A stretch of DNA of 64,000 bases from Daphnia pulex (lineage: Eukaryota; Arthropoda; Branchiopoda; Diplostraca; Daphniidae), in assembly GCF_021134715.1 (NCBI RefSeq), contig NC_060023.1, positions 992,001-1,056,000 of the forward strand. The letters are read 5' to 3'. Positions 17,386 to 42,504 of this stretch are shown piece by piece. A program made the translations under genes and the position numbers. Numbering within the stretch: position 1 is the stretch's first letter; each line of letters begins with the position of its first letter. The notes beneath the pieces are model-generated. The model was not told the origin of the DNA. It did no database searches and saw only the letters and a list, made by a program, of their open reading frames with translations.

Positions 17386-18592
17386 ATGAAGTTCCATTGC
17401 TTGCCTTTGGTAGTTGCCATTTTGTGCATCTCAGTCACCCATTCTGCACCGTGGCCCAGGTTTTAAATATTTATTCGAATAACTTTAGAAATTCCTATTA
17501 ATTAAGACTCTGTTTGTGCACAGGGAAGACTCCAGTCTCTTGAAACAACAAGGAGCTGATGGAATTAAAAATGGCGAGTCCGTGAAACGTGCTGCCAATA
17601 ACCGCAGATCAATGACTGGTGTTCCTTTCTTCGAAGTCCATGATCTGACCGGAGTTAAACACGAACACATCCCTCATGATGTCATGCCGTTTGAAGTCGT
17701 TAACATCGACGGTCACACCCACAACACTCTTCCGGCTGGTATCATCCCCGTTGAAATTATTCAGCAAAATTCACCCGAAGTCTTTGAAGTCCACGATCTG
17801 ACCGGAGTTAAACACGAACACATCCCTCATGATGTCATGCCGTTTGAAGTCGTTAACATCGACGGTCACACCCACAACACTCTTCCGGCTGGTATCATCC
17901 CCGTTGAAATTATTCAGCAAAATTCACCCGAAGTCTTTGAAGTTCACGATCTGACCGGAGTTGAGCACGATGACATCCCTGATGACGTCGTCCCTTTCGA
18001 AGTCGTTAACATCGACGGCCACACCCATGAAACTCTTCCGGCTGACATCATCCCTGTTGAAGTTATTCAACCGAATTCGGCCGAAGTCTTCGAAGTTCAC
18101 AACTTGGACGGAGTTGACCATGACGATATCCCCGATGATCTCTCCGTGTTTGAGGTTGTCGATATCTCCGGACACACCCATGAGACCCTGCCTAAGGATG
18201 TCTTCCCTGTCCACATCACTCCCATTGGCCCAGTTTCTGCTGGAGCCAGTGCTGTCAGCACAGACGGATCTGCCGTTTTTGCTTCCGCCTCCGCTTCATC
18301 GTCTGGAATTCCGGCCGGCCGGCCGGCCGGAGTGACTCGCACCTCATCTGGCATGTCCCGCATTAAAGTTGTTCCATCTTACGTCAACCGGATGAAGTTC
18401 CCTACCAAGTCTGCTGTACCTCATGTCGCTCCTGCAGTTGCCAGTGCCAGGCCTTATGCTGCTACTAAAGTGAAATGTCGCCAACCGGATCTTTTCCCGT
18501 TCAGAGGACCTGCCACAGGCATGTTCAAATTCTTCTCGGATATCGTACGAGAGGAACTGTCCGATTGCACCGCTGGAGGACAAATGCATTAA
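17386..18592 (+). CDS. Secreted protein with four 51-residue His/Asp-rich repeats
   Basis: Family not recognised. Two exons, 17386-17459 and 17524-18592; 380 codons. A clear signal peptide (CLPLVVAILCISVTHSA) is followed by a short linker with dibasic sites (ESVKRAANNRRS), possible propeptide cleavage points. Four tandem 51-residue units begin at 17630, 17783, 17936 and 18089. Each contains two related half-motifs of about 20 residues, FEVHDLTG..HEHIPHDVMP and FEVVNIDGHTHNTLP. Units 1 and 2 are almost identical in DNA, unit 3 is changed mainly toward Asp, and unit 4 is diverged. An Ala/Ser-rich hinge follows, then a basic tail with two cysteines (VKCRQPDLFPF and SDCTAG). An extracellular or cuticle-matrix role is possible, and the periodic His/Asp/Glu residues could bind metal; both are inference. 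Confidence 0.85.
17630..18230 (+). repeat. Four 153-bp tandem repeats within a coding exon
   Basis: Units start at 17630, 17783, 17936 and 18089, exactly 153 bp apart. Units 1 and 2 are identical from GATCTGACCGG to the end of unit 2, implying recent duplication or gene conversion. Units 3 and 4 are progressively diverged but keep frame and length. Confidence 0.9.
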
Positions 18593-33400: not shown

Positions 33401-33758
33401 GAGAAATCTAGAGCCAACTCTTTGCGATTCTCTCTTAATAATTCAAAAATTGTAATTTCAAAATAACTTGATATAATTTTTGAATATGGAATTATGTTTG
33501 AAATATTATTTTGAATACGTTTATCGACAAATAAAAATGCTGCTGATTGAAATCATTTATAAAAAGTTCGAAAGAGAGCGAAAAGTTACCACTGCAAATG
33601 GATATCCAGGTTGGGCAATAGATATAAGACCTCGATCAAAATCCAAAATCATTCAGCTATTCAGTGGAGCAGAACCTTTTCCTTGAATCTTAGCAGTTCC
33701 AAGAAAGTGAGCAAACAAGTATTTTATCGAGCTTATGCTATCGCAATCAAAGTAGAGA
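30443..33758. other. Intergenic region with palindromic repeat
   Basis: No gene supported. Contains the CCGGAAGT-rich palindromic repeat (30727-31045), AT-rich DNA, and a 22-bp direct tandem duplication at 33309-33352. The plus-strand ORF at 33480-33686 lies directly upstream of the long repeat ORF but is in a different frame and AT-biased. Confidence 0.45.
30727..31045. repeat. Palindromic, CCGGAAGT-rich interspersed-type repeat
   Basis: CCGGAAGTA occurs at about 30732, 30743, 30908 and 31034. A perfect 19-bp inverted repeat pairs 30790-30808 (AACCACATATTCGTGATCC) with 30964-30982. Between them lies a perfect 30-bp palindrome at 30872-30901 centred on CTATAG. No protein is encoded. It resembles a non-autonomous element, but no target duplication was identified. 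Confidence 0.6.
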
Positions 33759-36700
33759 ATGTTTTTCAAAAGTTCTTTTCCCTCAACACCGAAGCCTTTA
33801 CCTGGTAGGAAAAAGGCGTACCCCAACATCGAGAGTCGTGTAGTGCCTATTGCTGTCCAAAGGTTGTCTAAAGTTGAGCCTCGTGACAATGACCAAAGTC
33901 TGTCCGTCTCACGATTCTCGACATTGTTAACACCGAGATGCCCATTACCATCGAAGATACCCGTAAGGAAACAGGAGGGCACTTTTCCCGCCAAAGTCAA
34001 ACCAGCGCCGAAAGAACAGGCCAATACCGACGATAACGTCATCTTTTTTCACTGGTGTGAAACTTCCTCAAAAATCCCTGTTCGGGTTAAATCGTTGAAT
34101 CGTACTGATTCGCGTCCTCGAAATACCATCAAAGAGGTGACGCCTTCTGGTAATCTTCCAGCCCAGACATTTGTTTCGTCGGCAAAGGGTGTGCTGGGTC
34201 CCAAATTTCCTGTGCGTAGTGTCCCACGGAATAAACCAATCAGTTCCGGCGATGCTATGGCCAGTACATTCCAGAAGCGCGTCCTGGTCAATCGGAAATC
34301 TAATATCCCAGTACGGTTGATGCAGAATTCACCAGCAGGAGGAAAATCGACTGAAAATCATCATCTGAAAAAGTCTGATGGACTGTCTTGTGGTATGAAA
34401 TGCAACTGCGTAATTCTACCGGCGGGTATACCTATCAATCGTGAGACTAAGCCCGTTGTTGCAATTCCTCTTGTTTCATCGACGGATGATAGGGAGAAAA
34501 CTGGATTGTTGGATGATCCCCTTGTTTCATCGACGGATGATAGGGACAAAACTGGATTGTTGGATGATCCCCTTGTTTCATCGACGGATGATAGGGACAA
34601 AACTGGATTGTTGGATGATCCCCTTGTTTCATCGACGGATGATAGGGACAAAACTGGATTGTTGGATGATCCCCTTGTTTCATCGACGGATGATAGGGAC
34701 AAAACTGGATTGTTGGATGAGTCTCTGGTTTCATCGACGGATGATAGGGACAAAACTGGATTGTTGGATGATCCCCTTGTTTCATCGACGGATGATAGGA
34801 AGAAAACTGGATTGTTGGATGATCCCCTTGTTTCATCGACGGATGATAGGGACAAAACTGGATTGTTGGATGAGTCTCTGGTTTCATCGACGGATGATAG
34901 GGACAAAACTGGATTGTTGGATGATCCCCTTGTTTCATCGACGGATGATAGGGAGAAAACTGGATTGTTGGATGATCCCCTTGTTTCATCGACGGATGAT
35001 AGGGACAAAACTGGATTGTTGGATGATCCCCTTGTTTCATCGACGGATGATAGGGACAAAACTGGATTGTTGGATGAGTCTCTGGTTTCATCGACGGATG
35101 ATAGGGACAAAACTGGATTGTTGGATGAGTCTCTGGTTTCATCGACGGATGATAGGGACAAAACTGGATTGTTGGATGAGTCTCTGGTTTCATCGACGGA
35201 TGATAGGGACAAAACTGGATTGTTGGATGATCCCCTTGTTTCATCGACGGATGATAGGAAGAAAACTGGATTGTTGGATGATCCCCTTGTTTCATCGAAG
35301 GATGATAGGGACAAAACTGGATTGTTGGATGAGTCTCTGGTTTCATCGACGGATGATAGGGACAAAACTGGATTGTTGGATGATCCCCTTGTTTCATCGA
35401 CGGATGATAGGGAGAAAACTGGATTGTTGGATGATCCCCTTGTTTCATCGACGGATGATAGGGACAAAACTGGATTGTTGGATGATCCCCTTGTTTCATC
35501 GACGGATGATAGGGACAAAACTGGATTGTTGGATGAGTCTCTGGTTTCATCGACGGATGATAGGGACAAAACTGGATTGTTGGATGAGTCTCTGGTTTCA
35601 TCGACGGATGATAGGGACAAAACTGGATTGTTGGATGAGTCTCTGGTTTCATCGACGGATGATAGGGACAAAACTGGATTGTTGGATGAGTCTCTGGTTT
35701 CATCGACGGATGATAGGGACAAAACTGGATTGTTGGATGAGTCTCTGGTTTCATCGACGGATGATAGGGACAAAACTGGATTGTTGGATGATCCTCTTGT
35801 TTCATCGACGGATGATTGGGAGAAAACTGGAATGTTGGATGATCCCCTTGTTTCATCGACGGATGATAGGGACAAAACTGGATTGTTGGATGATCCTCTT
35901 GTTTCATCGACGGATGATAGGGAGAAAACTGGAATGTTGGATGATCCCCTTGTTTCATCGACGAATGATAGGGAGAAAACTGGAATGTTGGATGATCCCC
36001 TTGTTTCATCGACGGATGATAGGGACAAAACTGGAATGTTGGATGAGTCTCTGGTTTCATCGACGGATGATAGGGACAAAACTGGATTGTTGGATGAGTC
36101 TCTGGTTTCATCGACGGATGATAGGGACAAAACTGGATTGTTGGATGAGTCTCTGGTTTCATCGACGGATGATAGGGACAAAACTGGATTGTTGGATGAG
36201 TCTCTGGTTTCATCGACGGATGATAGGGACAAAACTGGATTGTTGGATGATCCCCTTGTTTCATCGACGGATGATAGGGACAAAACTGGATTGTTGGATG
36301 ATCCTCTTGTTTCATCGACGGATGATAGGGACAAAACTGGATCGTCGGAGAAAGCAGTAAGTATCGAAACTACTGTAATATTGCCAACAGAAGATGAAAT
36401 GAGGGCTGCAAGGAAGAAAGCCAAAAAGGCGAAGAAGAACTTTGATTTGGCTGCCAGGAGACGGGAAAAGAGGCGAGTAGAGAAATTACAAAAGTCTTTA
36501 CTTTCTGACCAGCCAACCGGCAACCCGGGCGAGATCGACGTCATTTCGACGATCGAGGATTTCGTTCCATCCGTTCCGACTTCTCTTCCCGCATTGCCAG
36601 AGATTGTAGCGGACTTGGACACGGTTAATAATATACCTGATTATAATGGAACGACATTTCCGGACACTTGCATCGAGCCTGCTGATTTGGACGTCTCTGG

Positions 36701-37148
36701 TGGGCAAGTGAACTCGACTAATGCAACACCCGAATCGACAGAGGTTCATCCCCAAAGCCACACCTCACCTTCTGAAATTGAGAAAGAAAGTTCGTTATAC
36801 TCCCAGCAAATGAACGAGCACTACGTGGAATACATTCGAATATCAAACTTGCCTTATACAGCACCAGGCGAGAAAATCGTAGCCTTCTTTGAAAATCTAG
36901 TTGGGCCTGTGCGGTACTTCAGCATGTTTCTGGATGAAAACGGTATGTACACGGGCAAGGCATCATTAATTTTCTCCAATTCTGGCGATGCTTTCAAAGC
37001 GATGTCCCTCTGTCGCCTTGGCTTAAAAATACAGGGACGTAGGATACGAATGAAACTCTTTGGTGATGGATTGGAGCTGCATCCGGGTGATTTTATTTTA
37101 CCTAGCGACCTAGCCTCAGGTTTCAACACGAGTTATTACATGCTGTAG
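33759..37148 (+). CDS. RRM protein with SxIP motifs and 37 17-residue repeats
   Basis: Single uninterrupted ORF, 1129 codons, starting at the first in-frame ATG. Residues 1-236 are basic and Ser/Pro-rich with three SxIP-type motifs: PSKIPVRK at about 65-71, SSKIPVR at about 103-109 and SNIPVR at 181-186. SxIP is the EB1-binding signal of microtubule plus-end proteins. Residues about 237-865 are 37 copies of a 17-residue unit, DDPLVSSTDDRDKTGLL or its DES variant. Next comes a basic helix (MRAARKKAKKAKK...RRREKRRVEKLQ), an acidic linker, and a C-terminal RRM at about 1022-1105 with RNP2-like YIRISNLPY and RNP1-like GKASLIFSN. An RNA-binding protein with possible microtubule contact is inference; the whole protein matches no family I know. 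The absence of introns is unusual here, and an A25 tract lies 500 bp downstream. Confidence 0.8.
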   Translation: MFFKSSFPSTPKPLPGRKKAYPNIESRVVPIAVQRLSKVEPRDNDQSLSVSRFSTLLTPRCPLPSKIPVRKQEGTFPAKVKPAPKEQANTDDNVIFFHWCETSSKIPVRVKSLNRTDSRPRNTIKEVTPSGNLPAQTFVSSAKGVLGPKFPVRSVPRNKPISSGDAMASTFQKRVLVNRKSNIPVRLMQNSPAGGKSTENHHLKKSDGLSCGMKCNCVILPAGIPINRETKPVVAIPLVSSTDDREKTGLLDDPLVSSTDDRDKTGLLDDPLVSSTDDRDKTGLLDDPLVSSTDDRDKTGLLDDPLVSSTDDRDKTGLLDESLVSSTDDRDKTGLLDDPLVSSTDDRKKTGLLDDPLVSSTDDRDKTGLLDESLVSSTDDRDKTGLLDDPLVSSTDDREKTGLLDDPLVSSTDDRDKTGLLDDPLVSSTDDRDKTGLLDESLVSSTDDRDKTGLLDESLVSSTDDRDKTGLLDESLVSSTDDRDKTGLLDDPLVSSTDDRKKTGLLDDPLVSSKDDRDKTGLLDESLVSSTDDRDKTGLLDDPLVSSTDDREKTGLLDDPLVSSTDDRDKTGLLDDPLVSSTDDRDKTGLLDESLVSSTDDRDKTGLLDESLVSSTDDRDKTGLLDESLVSSTDDRDKTGLLDESLVSSTDDRDKTGLLDESLVSSTDDRDKTGLLDDPLVSSTDDWEKTGMLDDPLVSSTDDRDKTGLLDDPLVSSTDDREKTGMLDDPLVSSTNDREKTGMLDDPLVSSTDDRDKTGMLDESLVSSTDDRDKTGLLDESLVSSTDDRDKTGLLDESLVSSTDDRDKTGLLDESLVSSTDDRDKTGLLDDPLVSSTDDRDKTGLLDDPLVSSTDDRDKTGSSEKAVSIETTVILPTEDEMRAARKKAKKAKKNFDLAARRREKRRVEKLQKSLLSDQPTGNPGEIDVISTIEDFVPSVPTSLPALPEIVADLDTVNNIPDYNGTTFPDTCIEPADLDVSGGQVNSTNATPESTEVHPQSHTSPSEIEKESSLYSQQMNEHYVEYIRISNLPYTAPGEKIVAFFENLVGPVRYFSMFLDENGMYTGKASLIFSNSGDAFKAMSLCRLGLKIQGRRIRMKLFGDGLELHPGDFILPSDLASGFNTSYYML
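34468..36349 (+). repeat. 37-unit, 51-bp coding minisatellite
   Basis: The TTGTTTCATC phase marker of the first unit is at 34471 and of the last at 36307, exactly 36 x 51 bp apart. Two linker variants alternate: GATGATCCCCTTGTT (DDPLV) and GATGAGTCTCTGGTT (DESLV). Minor variants change RDK to REK, RKK or WEK and GLL to GML. Units 6-14 and 15-23 share the same order of variants, showing a block duplication of about 459 bp. Confidence 0.95.
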
Positions 37149-37964
37149 GTGTCAGAGAGCTCGAGGTACCCTGGAACTTCAATAGAATTATTTTCTTTTC
37201 TTATGTCTTCATTGCCAACTTCTTTTTTTATCATTCATGCCTCTTCTCTACCCTCGATTCTGCACCCATAAACGGTGGTATGTCTTGAGGGGTCGTTTTC
37301 CGCCGCTCCGGGCGGCCGCACCAAAATATGCGGCTCTGGGCTGGCAGGGACGGCAAGAGGGGAGGTGTGTGTTCTGTTATTATTTCCCGCTTGTTTTCTA
37401 CTTTCGATTCTGCGCCTATAAACGGTGGTATGTTTTGAAAGGTCTTTTTCCACCGCTCCGGACGGTCGCACCAAAACATGCGGCTCCGGGCCGGCGGGGA
37501 GGGCAAGAGGAGAGGCCGGTCAGAAATCTCATTAAAATACATCGTCATGTCATGTTTCTTAATACAAGGGTTCTCACCCGCTAAACGCAACCAGTTTCTG
37601 TTCTTAAATGTTTTAAATTACGAACTTTCTTTACTTCATAAGTCTTAACAAAAAAAAAAAAAAAAAAAAAAAAATTTAAGGATCAAACCATTAAGGGAAT
37701 CAACACACCGTTCCGTTCTCATGACTTATTTTAAAACTTTGGGGACCCGAGTCCCCTTTAGAATTTACATTTGTTATCACAGTGGAAGCAAGCTGACGGT
37801 AAGTTGCGACAAAAAAAGAAACCAGATCTTGTTGCAACGACGTATGGCCCTGCTTTTCTTCTATGTTACATTAGTTCGGCTAGGCTTCATTAATCCCCGT
37901 GAAAAAAATTTAGATTTAACTGTTGTAATTTTCATGAAAATTCCAAAGCAACATAAACCCAGGT
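37149..37964. other. 3' region between convergent RRM-repeat and RPC2 genes
   Basis: Contains a diverged tandem duplication with 150-bp spacing: 37250-37370 and 37400-37525, each with CGATTCTGC, ATAAACGGTGGTATGT and CGCACCAAAA. An uninterrupted A25 tract at 37650-37674 follows. Open frames run through the duplication on both strands but show no protein signature. Confidence 0.6.
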
Positions 37965-40900
37965 TCAGTCAAAGTACTTGTCTAGTTTAAGACGGGGGGC
38001 TATGTTCATGGATTGAAGCTCCTGAAAGAGAAGTTTGCAGGCGTAAGGAATGCGGAGCGAGGAGACAGAAGCGCTTGACCGGCAAAAATGGCACCATCCG
38101 AAATAACCCATCAGTCCGCACTTATTGCAGACATCGACATTAAAAGCATCACTCGAAATCATCAAACGCTCCAAAATCAGCATGCTACAAATAAAATAAA
38201 AAAAAATCTTACTTGAAGTTCACACAACTTGATGAATGAGAGGAATGTCAAACCTTGAGCCGTATGCGATCAGGCAATCGCGTTCCATCTCACCAAGACG
38301 AAGTCCACCGTCACGGGCTCGACCCTCTGTCGGCTGCCGAGTAAGAATGGCTCTGGGTCCCTCAGAACGTGCGTGCATCTTGTCCATCACCATGTGCTTC
38401 AACTTTTGATAGTAGACCTTGACAAAGAAAAAGAGGCAAAACAGTTGATAAAATAAATGGAGATAAAATCATTTGCTGAAGATTACCGGTCCGAAATAGA
38501 TATAGGCCGTTAATTGCTCCCCTGTGGTACCAGACGTCATACACTCTTTCCCTTGGTAATTGAATCCGTGCTTCATCAATTCTTCACTCACATCTTGGAC
38601 CTGAAAAGTTAAAGACGTGACATGAAAAGAACAAATTCCGATAAATAATTAACGTGGTTGTACCTTGGATCCACCAAACGCTGTGCCGTAGTGAAACTTG
38701 CCTTCCATAAGACCTGCTTTACCAGCTAAAAGTTCAATTAGCTTACCCACTGTCATTCGAGAAGGAAAACCGTGAGGGTTCATGATAACATCCGGGCAAA
38801 TTCCAAGCTCAGTGAATGGCAAGTCTTCTTGCTCCGCAACAAGTGCTAGAAAAAAAAAACAAGGGTTTTAAATACAGCTTCTTCAAATCCTTACAAGATA
38901 ATTACCAGTAACTCCTTTTTGGCCGTGCCGACTACTAAACTTGTCGCCGATTTCAGGTCGACGAGTTTGTCTCAACTGAATTTTTATAATGTTCGCCTCT
39001 TCGGCATTGGACGAGAACATAACTTTCTCAACGTATGACGGAATCGGACCTTTATAACTAAATTTTAAAATATTTAACTAAAGAAGAAAAGAACCAAGTT
39101 CAAAGTAGAACCCTACGTAATTGGCACATCTCGATACTCCGGCAATGGAGCAGCTGCTGCTGGCACTCCAGGAGTAACGGCAACCGCAGAAACAGTCGGC
39201 ATAATTTTGTTAATCAAAACCTGCCGTATAAAATGTATTCAATAATATACACAGTTTACTATAAAGGGCGTAAAGAAATACCTGCTTAGGTTGAACAGGT
39301 TGACCAACGCAAGCGAAACCATCGATGTCAATGATTTCATGTTTCCAGGCAGGTTTCTTGGTTACTGGATCAATCATAGGACCGTTGACACGATCCGAGG
39401 TTCCATTATTGTATCGTTTCAAAACACATTTTGCATTTTTGTAAACGATACAGCGACCGTAACCTGAACTCGAACAAATATAGACATTAGCAAATGGAGG
39501 GCAAACAACTTGGCATAGAATTACCTCGATCCAAAGAGGCTTTGTTCAAAACAGTAGCATCTTCAATATCGAAACCAGAATAGCTCATAACAGCGACCAT
39601 GGCGTTTTGCCCAGCAGGAATATTCTCGAAATTGACCATTTCAATCGTACGGGTTTTGACCATCGGCTTGTGCGGGTAAACCAAATTGTAGAGAAGCCCA
39701 TCGATTCGATTTCGTTGATTGCAAGCGATAGTTCCCATCGCTTGTTTTCCCATGGCGCACTGGTAAGTGTTACGGGGACTTTGATTGTGATGAGGATACG
39801 GAATCAGGCCAGCACAGACGCCTAGCAAGGTAAACGGCTCTATTTCAAGATGGGTCGTTTCTTCGATGATATCTGATTCGTAAACAGCAATGTTGCTGTC
39901 GTTTTCTTCATTTACATCCAAATATTCTACTAATCCGTCGTGAATGAAATCCTCAAACGTCCGAAAGCTATCGGCAAGTTCTTGCATATGATGTTCCGTT
40001 ACGGCTGGTCTTCCTTGTCTGACGATGATGTAAGGACTAAAAAAAAGATTAACATTAGAATAAGCTGTTGAGAAACTTAACATGTTGGCAATCTTACCGA
40101 CACAAACGACCACCATCACAACTGATGTAAACCGATCGAGTAAGGAAGTGCGGGTAGATGGACACAAACGCATTAACGAAGCCGTGGCGACGAGCCAGTT
40201 TAAAGTAACGGATTAACCGCAGGTAGTCCTTGACCAAGCCGAGAATATTACCTAAAATGACAGAAATGTAACAAATAATTCTTTTAAAAAGGATGTGATT
40301 GCATACCATTAAGGAAAACTGTGTAGATGCTTGGATCACTGATTTCCTCGCCACTGAAAAGGTTAATATCTTCGACGCCCATATTCTGCGCAATTTTGAT
40401 GATTGGTTCTTCTTCGGCTTCAGTTGTTATGTGAGTCATCAGAGCCAAATTTTTTACCAATCCGCAACCCTACAATACGCCAGACGTTAAAACGACATTT
40501 AGGGCATTCAAAAAATTTAATGATGTTGTTACCTCTCCTTCAGGGGTGTCGGAAGGACACAGCATCCCTAAACAACAAATATTTTGAATAAAAATAAATG
40601 ACTAAATTTAATACAAGTATCAATAAAGATTTTACCCCACTGTGATGGTTGAAGAGAACGCGGTCCGGACACTTTACGTGTTTTTTCAAACTGTGAATTG
40701 ACTCGAGTCATCATTCCAAGGCCAGAAATGTACGATAGGCGACAAAGCATTTGAGTGACACCTTGTCTTTCCATCCGAAAACGTTTGATGGTCCAATTTC
40801 CCTAAAAGAAAAATAGAATCCAGTGAATTAGGGAAGATAAATACAAATAATTGTGATAGTATTACCGTAGCAATGGCGTTTTCCAGTCCTAGAGTTAAGG

Positions 40901-42504
40901 TATCTGTTCGTATATGTTTAATCACGTCAAACTGAGCTGCTTTAACTTTTGGAATATTCTTATCGGCGATTGACTTCAGCTCAAAGTTCATGCGTTTGAA
41001 CAAATCTTCGAACAAAAGAGAAATGAGCGATCCTGCCAGCTCGCAACGCTTATTTCCATAATAATCGCGATCGTCGACCGATGTTGGGTCTCTTTCTGCT
41101 TGGATCACTCGACGAATCATCAGGGCTAAATACATAGCTTTAGCTTTAAAGTTGAAATTAACGACCTGTTTGAAAGAACAAGGTATTAAAAGGAGATTAC
41201 AGAAAGGGTTATAAGGAAAGGCTCTTACGGGAACATGAGCTAAAACTGTATCGGCAAGGGCTTCTCTCGCCTCATCCAAGGGCGATTTCTTCGGACCCCC
41301 AAAAAATCGTTTTTGACGCAATTTCTTTGCCAAATGACTGTTTAAAAATTAATACAAAGATTAACAAATGTTTATACAAGTTAAAATTAGTACAACATTG
41401 AGTACTTTAATGCTTGCTGTTGCGTAAATATAGACGCTCGAACGCACTCTTCTAACGAAGGTGCAAACGAAGTCATCACATGGTCATCTGTACCGATCAT
41501 TTGGACTATTTCTTGATCTGACACAATACCCATTGCTTTGAACGCAATGACTACAGGAATATCCTTGAAAATAAATAGTCTGTATGAAAGTCTTGGTTAC
41601 CAATAAGAGTTTCTTCTACGTCAACTTACATCTTGAAAACTATTTTGCTTTAAATAGTATTTTCCTTTGTTCATAATTACGTTGGTACGCGTCTTCGTTC
41701 CATGGGTACTGCTGGTGACTTGGCAGGACATGTTTCCTTTCCTATCCTGCTCGACAATCATACGATTCTTGGACATTTGCTCTTGAATCAAAATCACCTA
41801 AAAGATTCAAAAAATTTAGAGAAACCAAACAATCTATCTCGAAAATGTTTTGAAATACTTTTTCGTTCCCGCGGACGATGAAATATCCACCACAGTCGTA
41901 CGGACATTCATTTTTCTTGGCCATCTCTGCAGGTAAAATACCTGCTAGTGTGCAGTTTGAACTTCTAAGCATGATTGGCATCCTGCCAATTGCAATTCCA
42001 TTACGCACAACCCTTTGTTGCCCTCTGGTGTACTCAATATCCACAGTAACTGGTGCAGAATAGGTCATGTCTCGCAGTCTACACTCATGTGGTGTGGTCA
42101 GACGAGACTGCAAAGGGAAACTCAAATTATAACAGAATCGTTTCACACTTAATGATGGTAAGACTACATACATGGTGCATGTCTTCAATCGAGTCTGGTT
42201 TCCCCACATGGATATCCAAATATTTGAGGTAGAAAGTAGGGTCAGCAAAGCTTAAAACTTTTTCATTGGCTTTTACTATTTTCTTGATTTCAACATTGAT
42301 AAAGTAATTATAGGAATCAATGTGCTGTTTTACTAATCCTTTCGTCTTCAGAAATGCTGGCACCAACTTCCATTTCTCCTACAAAGAAAACAAATTATTC
42401 TTTTGTTCCCTTTTTTTCTCACTCAGACCACCTACCTCGACAGCCTTGATCGGCTCCAATAATTTTTCCAAGTCATTATAAATATCTTTTTTAGATTCAC
42501 CCAT
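37965..42504 (-). CDS. POLR3B: DNA-directed RNA polymerase III subunit RPC2
   Basis: Second-largest catalytic subunit of RNA polymerase III (tRNA, 5S and U6 synthesis; nucleus). Nineteen exons on the minus strand: 42504-42436, 42378-42172, 42107-41859, 41797-41630, 41563-41406, 41337-41229, 41165-40866, 40801-40636, 40567-40533, 40469-40307, 40251-40098, 40036-39525, 39463-39282, 39220-39117, 39057-38906, 38845-38664, 38600-38487, 38417-38254, 38184-37965. They give 1135 codons, close to the usual length, and phases agree throughout. Signatures include [40 protein letters not shown], the active-site region YDIEDA-like [37 protein letters not shown] and the C-terminal zinc motif C-x2-C-x8-C-x2-C ([16 protein letters not shown]). 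The gene appears intact and single copy here. One exon is only 35 nt. Confidence 0.97.

Follow-up and report, generated by a model that had tools for sequence, protein, structure and literature searches.

An apparently chimeric Daphnia pulex gene combining SxIP motifs, an acidic tandem array and an RRM: a candidate EB1-docked adaptor

The window analyzed in the present work is a stretch of 64,000 nucleotides from the genome of Daphnia pulex (C7:992001-1056000), and the gene considered here, referred to as W, occupies its positions 33759..37148 (+). Our analyses suggest that W belongs, as a chimera, to a multicopy family of long single frames and that its protein may act as a multivalent adaptor docked on EB1, an explanation to which we assign a probability of about 0.5. 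Under this explanation, two to four SxIP-like sites in the basic N-terminus would anchor the protein to dimers of EB1 at the growing ends of microtubules, an acidic array of ~630 residues would serve as a flexible spacer whose length and charge matter more than its sequence, and the C-terminal RRM would carry the partner, which may be a protein or else an RNA bound through a non-canonical surface.

Modules and junctions of W

The frame of W begins with an ATG and extends for 1129 amino acids (aa) plus a stop (33759..37148, +), with zero internal stops. It comprises an SxIP block of 237 aa with a net charge of +25 (33759..34469, +), a tandem array (34470..36356, +), a linker with the basic segment KKAKKAKKNFDLAARRREKRR (36361..36818, +; segment at 36414-36476) that is common to the C3-type genes described below, an RRM (aa 1026-1096; 36834..37046, +) and a C-terminal tail (GDFILPSDLAS...; 37047..37145, +) that is similar among the paralogs. 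The first-pass annotation of this DNA had described an intronless-looking combination of SxIP motifs, 37 repeat units and an RRM, and this is borne out by the 1129-codon frame with its three SxIP motifs and a related PKFPVR, 37 x 17 residues and a Pfam RRM. In the long-frame members of the family, W included, the modules contain no internal stop within each named frame; introns may lie outside the frames. An in-frame leader, MLSQSK-stop (33735..33755, +), precedes W, and because the paralogs C8a and C8b read through here as MLSQSKLKM..., the translation of W probably starts at 33759.

Relatives were sought in a genome of 133,188,837 bases in 13 contigs (one of which, C13, of 15,333 bases, is mitochondrial and holds COX1). 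At E<=0.001, the RRM query gave 19 matches, the SxIP block 7 and the linker 8, with several matches per gene and overlaps between the searches. On contig C8, the frames C8a (957 codons, 9.64 Mb; L009) and C8b (332 codons, 9.63 Mb; L032) carry the same SxIP block in their N-terminal part; in C8a it is followed by repeats, a basic tail motif, further repeats, the linker and an RRM, and in C8b by a basic tail, without an RRM. On C7, the block forms the C-terminal part of C7x (11.23 Mb; L030) and C7y (11.13 Mb; L031), which begin with a coiled-coil-like part (this label, like those of disorder, was assigned by eye); an RRM lies between the two parts in C7x and is absent from C7y. Four genes on C3 (viz. 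C3a, C3b, C3c and C3d, at 6.02, 5.89, 5.91 and 7.36 Mb; L010, L011, L012 and L013) make up the C3 type, of which C3a, C3c and C3d have another N-terminus (MGFxxSIK...) and other repeats followed by the same linker and RRM, without the SxIP block; the long frame of C3b stops after the linker and its RRM lies in a second frame. A coiled-coil-like part, one or more RRMs and a basic tail are combined in C8z (C8, 8.86 Mb; L037) and in C7p, C7q and C7r (8.07, 8.00 and 7.83 Mb; L034-L036); C7s (9.28 Mb; L045) is a further relative and C8c a 150-codon RRM fragment (L014). SxIP blocks are thus present in five frames, with one short fragment on C8, and three of these frames (W, C8a and C7x) also hold an RRM. 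No relatives of the linker-RRM part or of the SxIP block were found in the viral contigs scanned.

The junctions of W coincide with the limits of its array. W and C8b are homologous at the DNA level from 33605, the end of the C8b locus compared, to 34470, the first base of the array, and homology to the C3 genes starts at 36361, right after the array, and continues to 37169 (37176 in C3d). Further homology on the 3' side reaches 37741 in C3a and C3d, where a non-coding block (37552..37741, +) is ~70% identical, and 37616 in C3b and C3c, which match only 37552-37616. The SxIP block matched no C3 place in the genome (E<=0.001), and the N-terminal part of a C3 query matched all four C3 copies together with a weakly similar place on C5 (E 4.5e-4), the other 54 of the 59 matches of this query belonging to its repeat part. 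The clearest trace of joining is provided by C8a, whose array contains, at 98% identity, the terminal basic tail of C8b. Since SxIP-type homology ends where the array starts, C3-type homology begins where it ends, and the C8a array holds the basic tail, W appears from these comparisons to be a chimera of SxIP-type and C3-type genes joined at the repeat.

The array itself consists of 37 tandem units of 17 aa with a net charge of -104 (34470..36356, +), as had been claimed; every unit keeps the 17-aa spacing and the last is diverged at its end (Tandem Repeats Finder: 51 bp x 36.9 at 34466-36349). Twenty-six of the 37 units are of one of two types (LVSSTDDRDKTGLLDDP and LVSSTDDRDKTGLLDES, 13 each), encoded with the others in 14 distinct DNA versions. 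Of the 21 matches of the W repeat in the genome at E<=0.001, 13 fall in W itself and the other 8 in C8a (54-58% identity); the arrays of C3a and C3d, judged by eye, seem to have no relation to it or to one another. The five arrays measured (W, C8a, C3a, C3c and C3d) represent three sequence types, yet all are acidic, with a charge of -0.16 to -0.26 per residue; in each, a period of 16-18 residues is among the strongest, the C3 copies having longer composite periods as well. The CK2-type context noted earlier is present as an excess of [ST]xx[DE] in the W array (73 against 46.7 in shuffles, standard deviation 5.0, although near-copy units amount to effectively one observation) and in those of C3a, C3c and C3d, and slightly in C8a (27 against 22.0, standard deviation 3.5); as the units are near-copies, it is not independent evidence, and CK2 regulation was dropped as such. 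In C3a, the strand opposite the array likewise contains an open frame (L010 3056-6769, -; 1238 codons), probably as a by-product of the stop-free repeat unit.

Several features of the relatives may be recorded here. Six of them (L030, L034-L037 and L045) have an N-terminal hydrophobic stretch with a best 19-residue mean hydropathy of 1.5 to 2.1, possibly a membrane anchor, which is absent from C7y (L031). The C3 members (L010-L013) begin with MGxxxS, which we take as a possible myristoylation signal. Three long frames on C5 (L046, L047 and L048; 0.07-0.38 Mb) show a weak relation (E 2e-5 to 5e-4) to the coiled-coil-like part, and L047 and L048 contain what we presume to be a KH domain, so that a second RNA-binding-type domain may have been joined to this part. 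A shugoshin-like identity of the coiled-coil-like part, considered because of a resemblance, was discarded, no shugoshin model being among the Pfam families at E<=1 for L030, L037 or L034. A Pfam ACT_7 match in C3d (E 5.2e-15) lies within repeats, with no single stretch passing, and was disregarded.

Putative partners of the modules and their constraint

Strict SxIP motifs are found in W at aa 65-70 (SKIPVR; 33951..33968, +), aa 104-109 (SKIPVR; 34068..34085, +) and aa 181-186 (SNIPVR; 34299..34316, +), in agreement with the first-pass annotation, and its related KFPVR corresponds to PKFPVR at aa 148-153 (34200..34217, +), a degenerate site (S absent, F for I) that is missing from C8a along with the surrounding residues. 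When the 237-aa block was shuffled, a mean of 0.16 SxIP was obtained, at least three, the number in W, occurred in 4 of 10,000 shuffles, and four [IF]P[VI]R, again as in W, in none of 10,000. The motifs recur in the C7x block, which is 35% identical to that of W; identical positions make up 18 of 24 in the motifs and 60 of 192 elsewhere (Fisher p 5.6e-5, a flattering value as the columns were chosen after the motif had been seen), which suggests stricter conservation of the motifs than of the remaining block. All five blocks possess three strict SxIP motifs, and in each case the next two residues are V or I, then R. PMC12695022 describes hydrophobic and basic residues after SxIP as favourable for EB1 binding; the W sites, with a valine and then a basic residue, have this character, and the block is basic with no D or E within two positions of the three SxIPVR sites. 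The same genome encodes an EB1 (L061 on C11; PF03271, E 1.3e-15). These observations make it rather likely that the SxIP block docks EB1.

The RRM, also predicted earlier, passes the curated Pfam RRM_1 cut-off of 20.7 bits with 24.5 bits in the whole protein and 30.7 bits as a domain alone, and 13 of the 14 family RRM domains submitted pass Pfam at E<=0.01. Single-sequence searches with this domain returned, among others, Hrb1, nucleolin, RBM12, GRSF1 and hnRNP F/H (the last at E 0.06-0.2, after Hrb1 and nucleolin), a profile search ranked Pab1, nucleolin and HuR at the top, and a structure search with a low-confidence model gave matches including NONO/SFPQ and PUF60. Assignment to a specific RRM subfamily was dropped because the single-sequence and profile searches disagree.

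Ratios of non-synonymous to synonymous change (dN/dS, by NG86) point to constraint on these modules. For the linker and RRM together, the comparison of W with the unbroken C3 copies C3a, C3c and C3d gave 0.34, 0.36 and 0.32 (z -4.5 to -4.7), that with C8a 0.44 (z -2.8) and that with C8c 0.33 (127 codons, z -2.8). The RRM and tail gave 0.21, 0.22 and 0.32 against the same C3 copies (z -3.1 to -3.6) and 0.35 against C8a (z -1.6), and the SxIP block 0.43 against C7x (z -3.1). Over long spans of time, purifying selection thus appears to have acted on the modules, which is a statement on the modules rather than on the W copy itself. That W encodes a real, constrained protein is, in our judgment, very likely.

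W and C8a lie within a wider C7-C8 duplication reaching 41870, and the level of divergence is uneven along this pair, with dS of 0.07 in the N-terminus, 0.27 in the linker and 0.10 in the RRM and tail; three 150-base bins of the linker are 81-89% identical, against mostly 94-100% (lowest 87%) in non-coding bins. The unevenness of dS suggests exchange among the copies. The low identity of the linker bins raised the possibility of positive selection, which was rejected, as dS is also raised in the linker (0.27) and exchange with another copy fits better. A broader and distinctly tentative extension is that one genome makes and remakes plus-end adaptors by swapping modules in single frames at acidic arrays (viz. 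the SxIP block, the coiled-coil-like part with its hydrophobic N-terminus, the RRM and the basic tail), W being an EB1-recruited RNA adaptor born by fusion. On this extension, since one copy may have a wholly different array from another and yet keep the 16-18-residue period and the charge, selection would act on array length and charge rather than on sequence.

Weighing of alternative explanations

A number of observations weigh against an EB1-docked adaptor. The SxIP block and the RRM occur apart in paralogs (C8b and C7y lack the RRM and the C3 type lacks SxIP); hence the layout singled out in the first-pass annotation exists in W without being a fixed pair, W being one of several related chimeras, and the proposed microtubule link retains the recurrent and strictly kept motifs, their favourable context and the EB1 gene, but not SxIP as a constant companion of the RRM. 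The EB1 of this genome (L061) reads FAAP, where PMC12695022 describes FVIP. The most constant core of the sites is [KN][IF]P[VI]R rather than SxIP, and Ser is missing from one of the four sites in each of W, C8b (both PKFPVR), C7x and C7y (both PKIPVR); therefore the ligand may not be EB1.

The strongest alternative is that some protein or ligand other than EB1 docks on the SxIP block. In this view, the [KN][IF]P[VI]R peptides act together with the Cys-containing end of the block (SDGLSCGMKCNCVILP; 34374..34421, +) as a single ligand-binding module, and the resemblance to SxIP is in part a coincidence. This view accounts for the core [IF]P[VI]R, present four times in W, C8b, C7x and C7y and three times in C8a, for the absence of Ser at one site in four of five blocks, and for the SCG..C end, which is partly conserved together with the motifs in the five-block alignment. 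We nevertheless regard it as unlikely, since all five blocks keep three strict SxIP followed by V or I and R, and the W sites have no nearby acidic residue, in accordance with the EB1 preferences given in PMC12695022.

The nature of the cargo is a separate matter. The whole proteins of C7x and C3d score 14.7 bits each, under the Pfam RRM cut-off, the structure model of the W RRM has a low-confidence mean pLDDT (predicted local distance difference test) of 53.9, and the best Foldseek match of this model has an E-value of 5.7e-3, none reaching E<=0.001. Canonical RNA-binding RRMs usually carry aromatic residues at position 2 of RNP2 and positions 3 and 5 of RNP1. In the alignment, W has R in the former (IRISNL) and K and S in the latter (TGKASLIF). 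The RNA-binding role proposed earlier consequently keeps its RRM by profile and loses the three usual stacking residues, and RNA binding is for this reason less secure than EB1 docking; RNA is a conceivable but somewhat doubtful ligand.

A different view of W is that it is a decaying, repeat-driven chimera without a selected function, fragments having been spread by duplication and unequal exchange while the stop-free 51-bp unit keeps the frame open. In its favour, several copies are truncated, split or interrupted (viz. C8c, the short SxIP fragment on C8, C3b, the C5 linker fragment L028/L033 and, at 6.2 Mb of C7, a copy with internal stops), W has a stop in its leader, and the recent N-terminal pairs are weakly constrained, with non-significant values of 0.73 for W-C8b (z -0.78) and 0.51 for W-C8a (z -1.22); the pair C8a-C8b is likewise non-significant at 0.51 (z -1.2). 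Among the points against the adaptor, the linker alone is looser, at 0.50 for W-C3a and 0.54 for W-C3c (0.31 for W-C3d, z -2.3 to -3.6 for the three; 0.46 for W-C8a, z -2.4), and the C8a linker gives 0.59 against C3a and 0.61 against C3c, both non-significant. However, the 500 non-repeat codons of W are stop-free and dN is significantly below dS against the older paralogs, and we consider this view improbable.

Least probable by far is that W encodes a mobile-element protein, e.g. the ORF1-type protein of a non-LTR (long terminal repeat) retrotransposon, for although the long single frames are multicopy and RRM-bearing, and an 832-codon frame upstream of C3c (L012 3-2498, +) resembles by eye a non-LTR polymerase/reverse transcriptase, the copies share flanking DNA and look like segmental duplications, their module order varies, and inspection by eye of the window frames of at least 130 aa revealed none that is polymerase-like, no profile search aimed at a polymerase having been made. 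A recent retrocopy origin of W was also rejected, as the C8-matching flanks run past the A-run at 37650-37674 to 38403.

Elsewhere in the window, the stretch 37547-41870 is part of the C7-C8 duplication, at ~95-97% identity, and includes minus-strand frames at 40689-41348 and nearby which we take to resemble the second-largest subunit of RNA polymerase III. A 367-codon frame at 17489-18589 (+) contains a 153-bp tandem repeat of ~3 copies (17628-18153).

Comparison with known systems

Among the matches listed in the open-licence literature of PubMed Central, neither an SxIP-RRM protein nor the W family is reported, in agreement with the earlier statement that no described protein of this layout was known. 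The parts themselves are known; the new element is their repeat-joined exchange and the SxIP-RRM combination. If the proposed explanation is true, W would show a new microtubule-tip adaptor arising by the joining of existing modules across a tandem repeat, and the family, in which related C-terminal domains occur both with SxIP sites and without them and the acidic arrays are of three kinds, would offer a natural series for the contributions of spacer sequence, length and charge.

Within the family, W and its paralogs (C7x/C7y, C8a/C8b, C3a-d, C7p-s and C8z) have whole modules in common and differ in the set of modules and in the central repeat. The RRM of W resembles those of hnRNP F/H, GRSF1, RBM12, NONO/SFPQ, Pab1, nucleolin and HuR as an RRM, with no specific subfamily established. 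The SxIP plus-end tracking proteins include MACF, APC, CLASP and the Navigators, and W is like them in having several SxIP sites in a basic stretch; we know of none in which such sites are combined with both an RRM and an acidic tandem array. APC, to our knowledge, is without an RRM and is not homologous to W. The comparison with APC is one of manner of working, as APC unites RNA and microtubule plus-end biology in one protein, according to PMC8594469, and W may do likewise.

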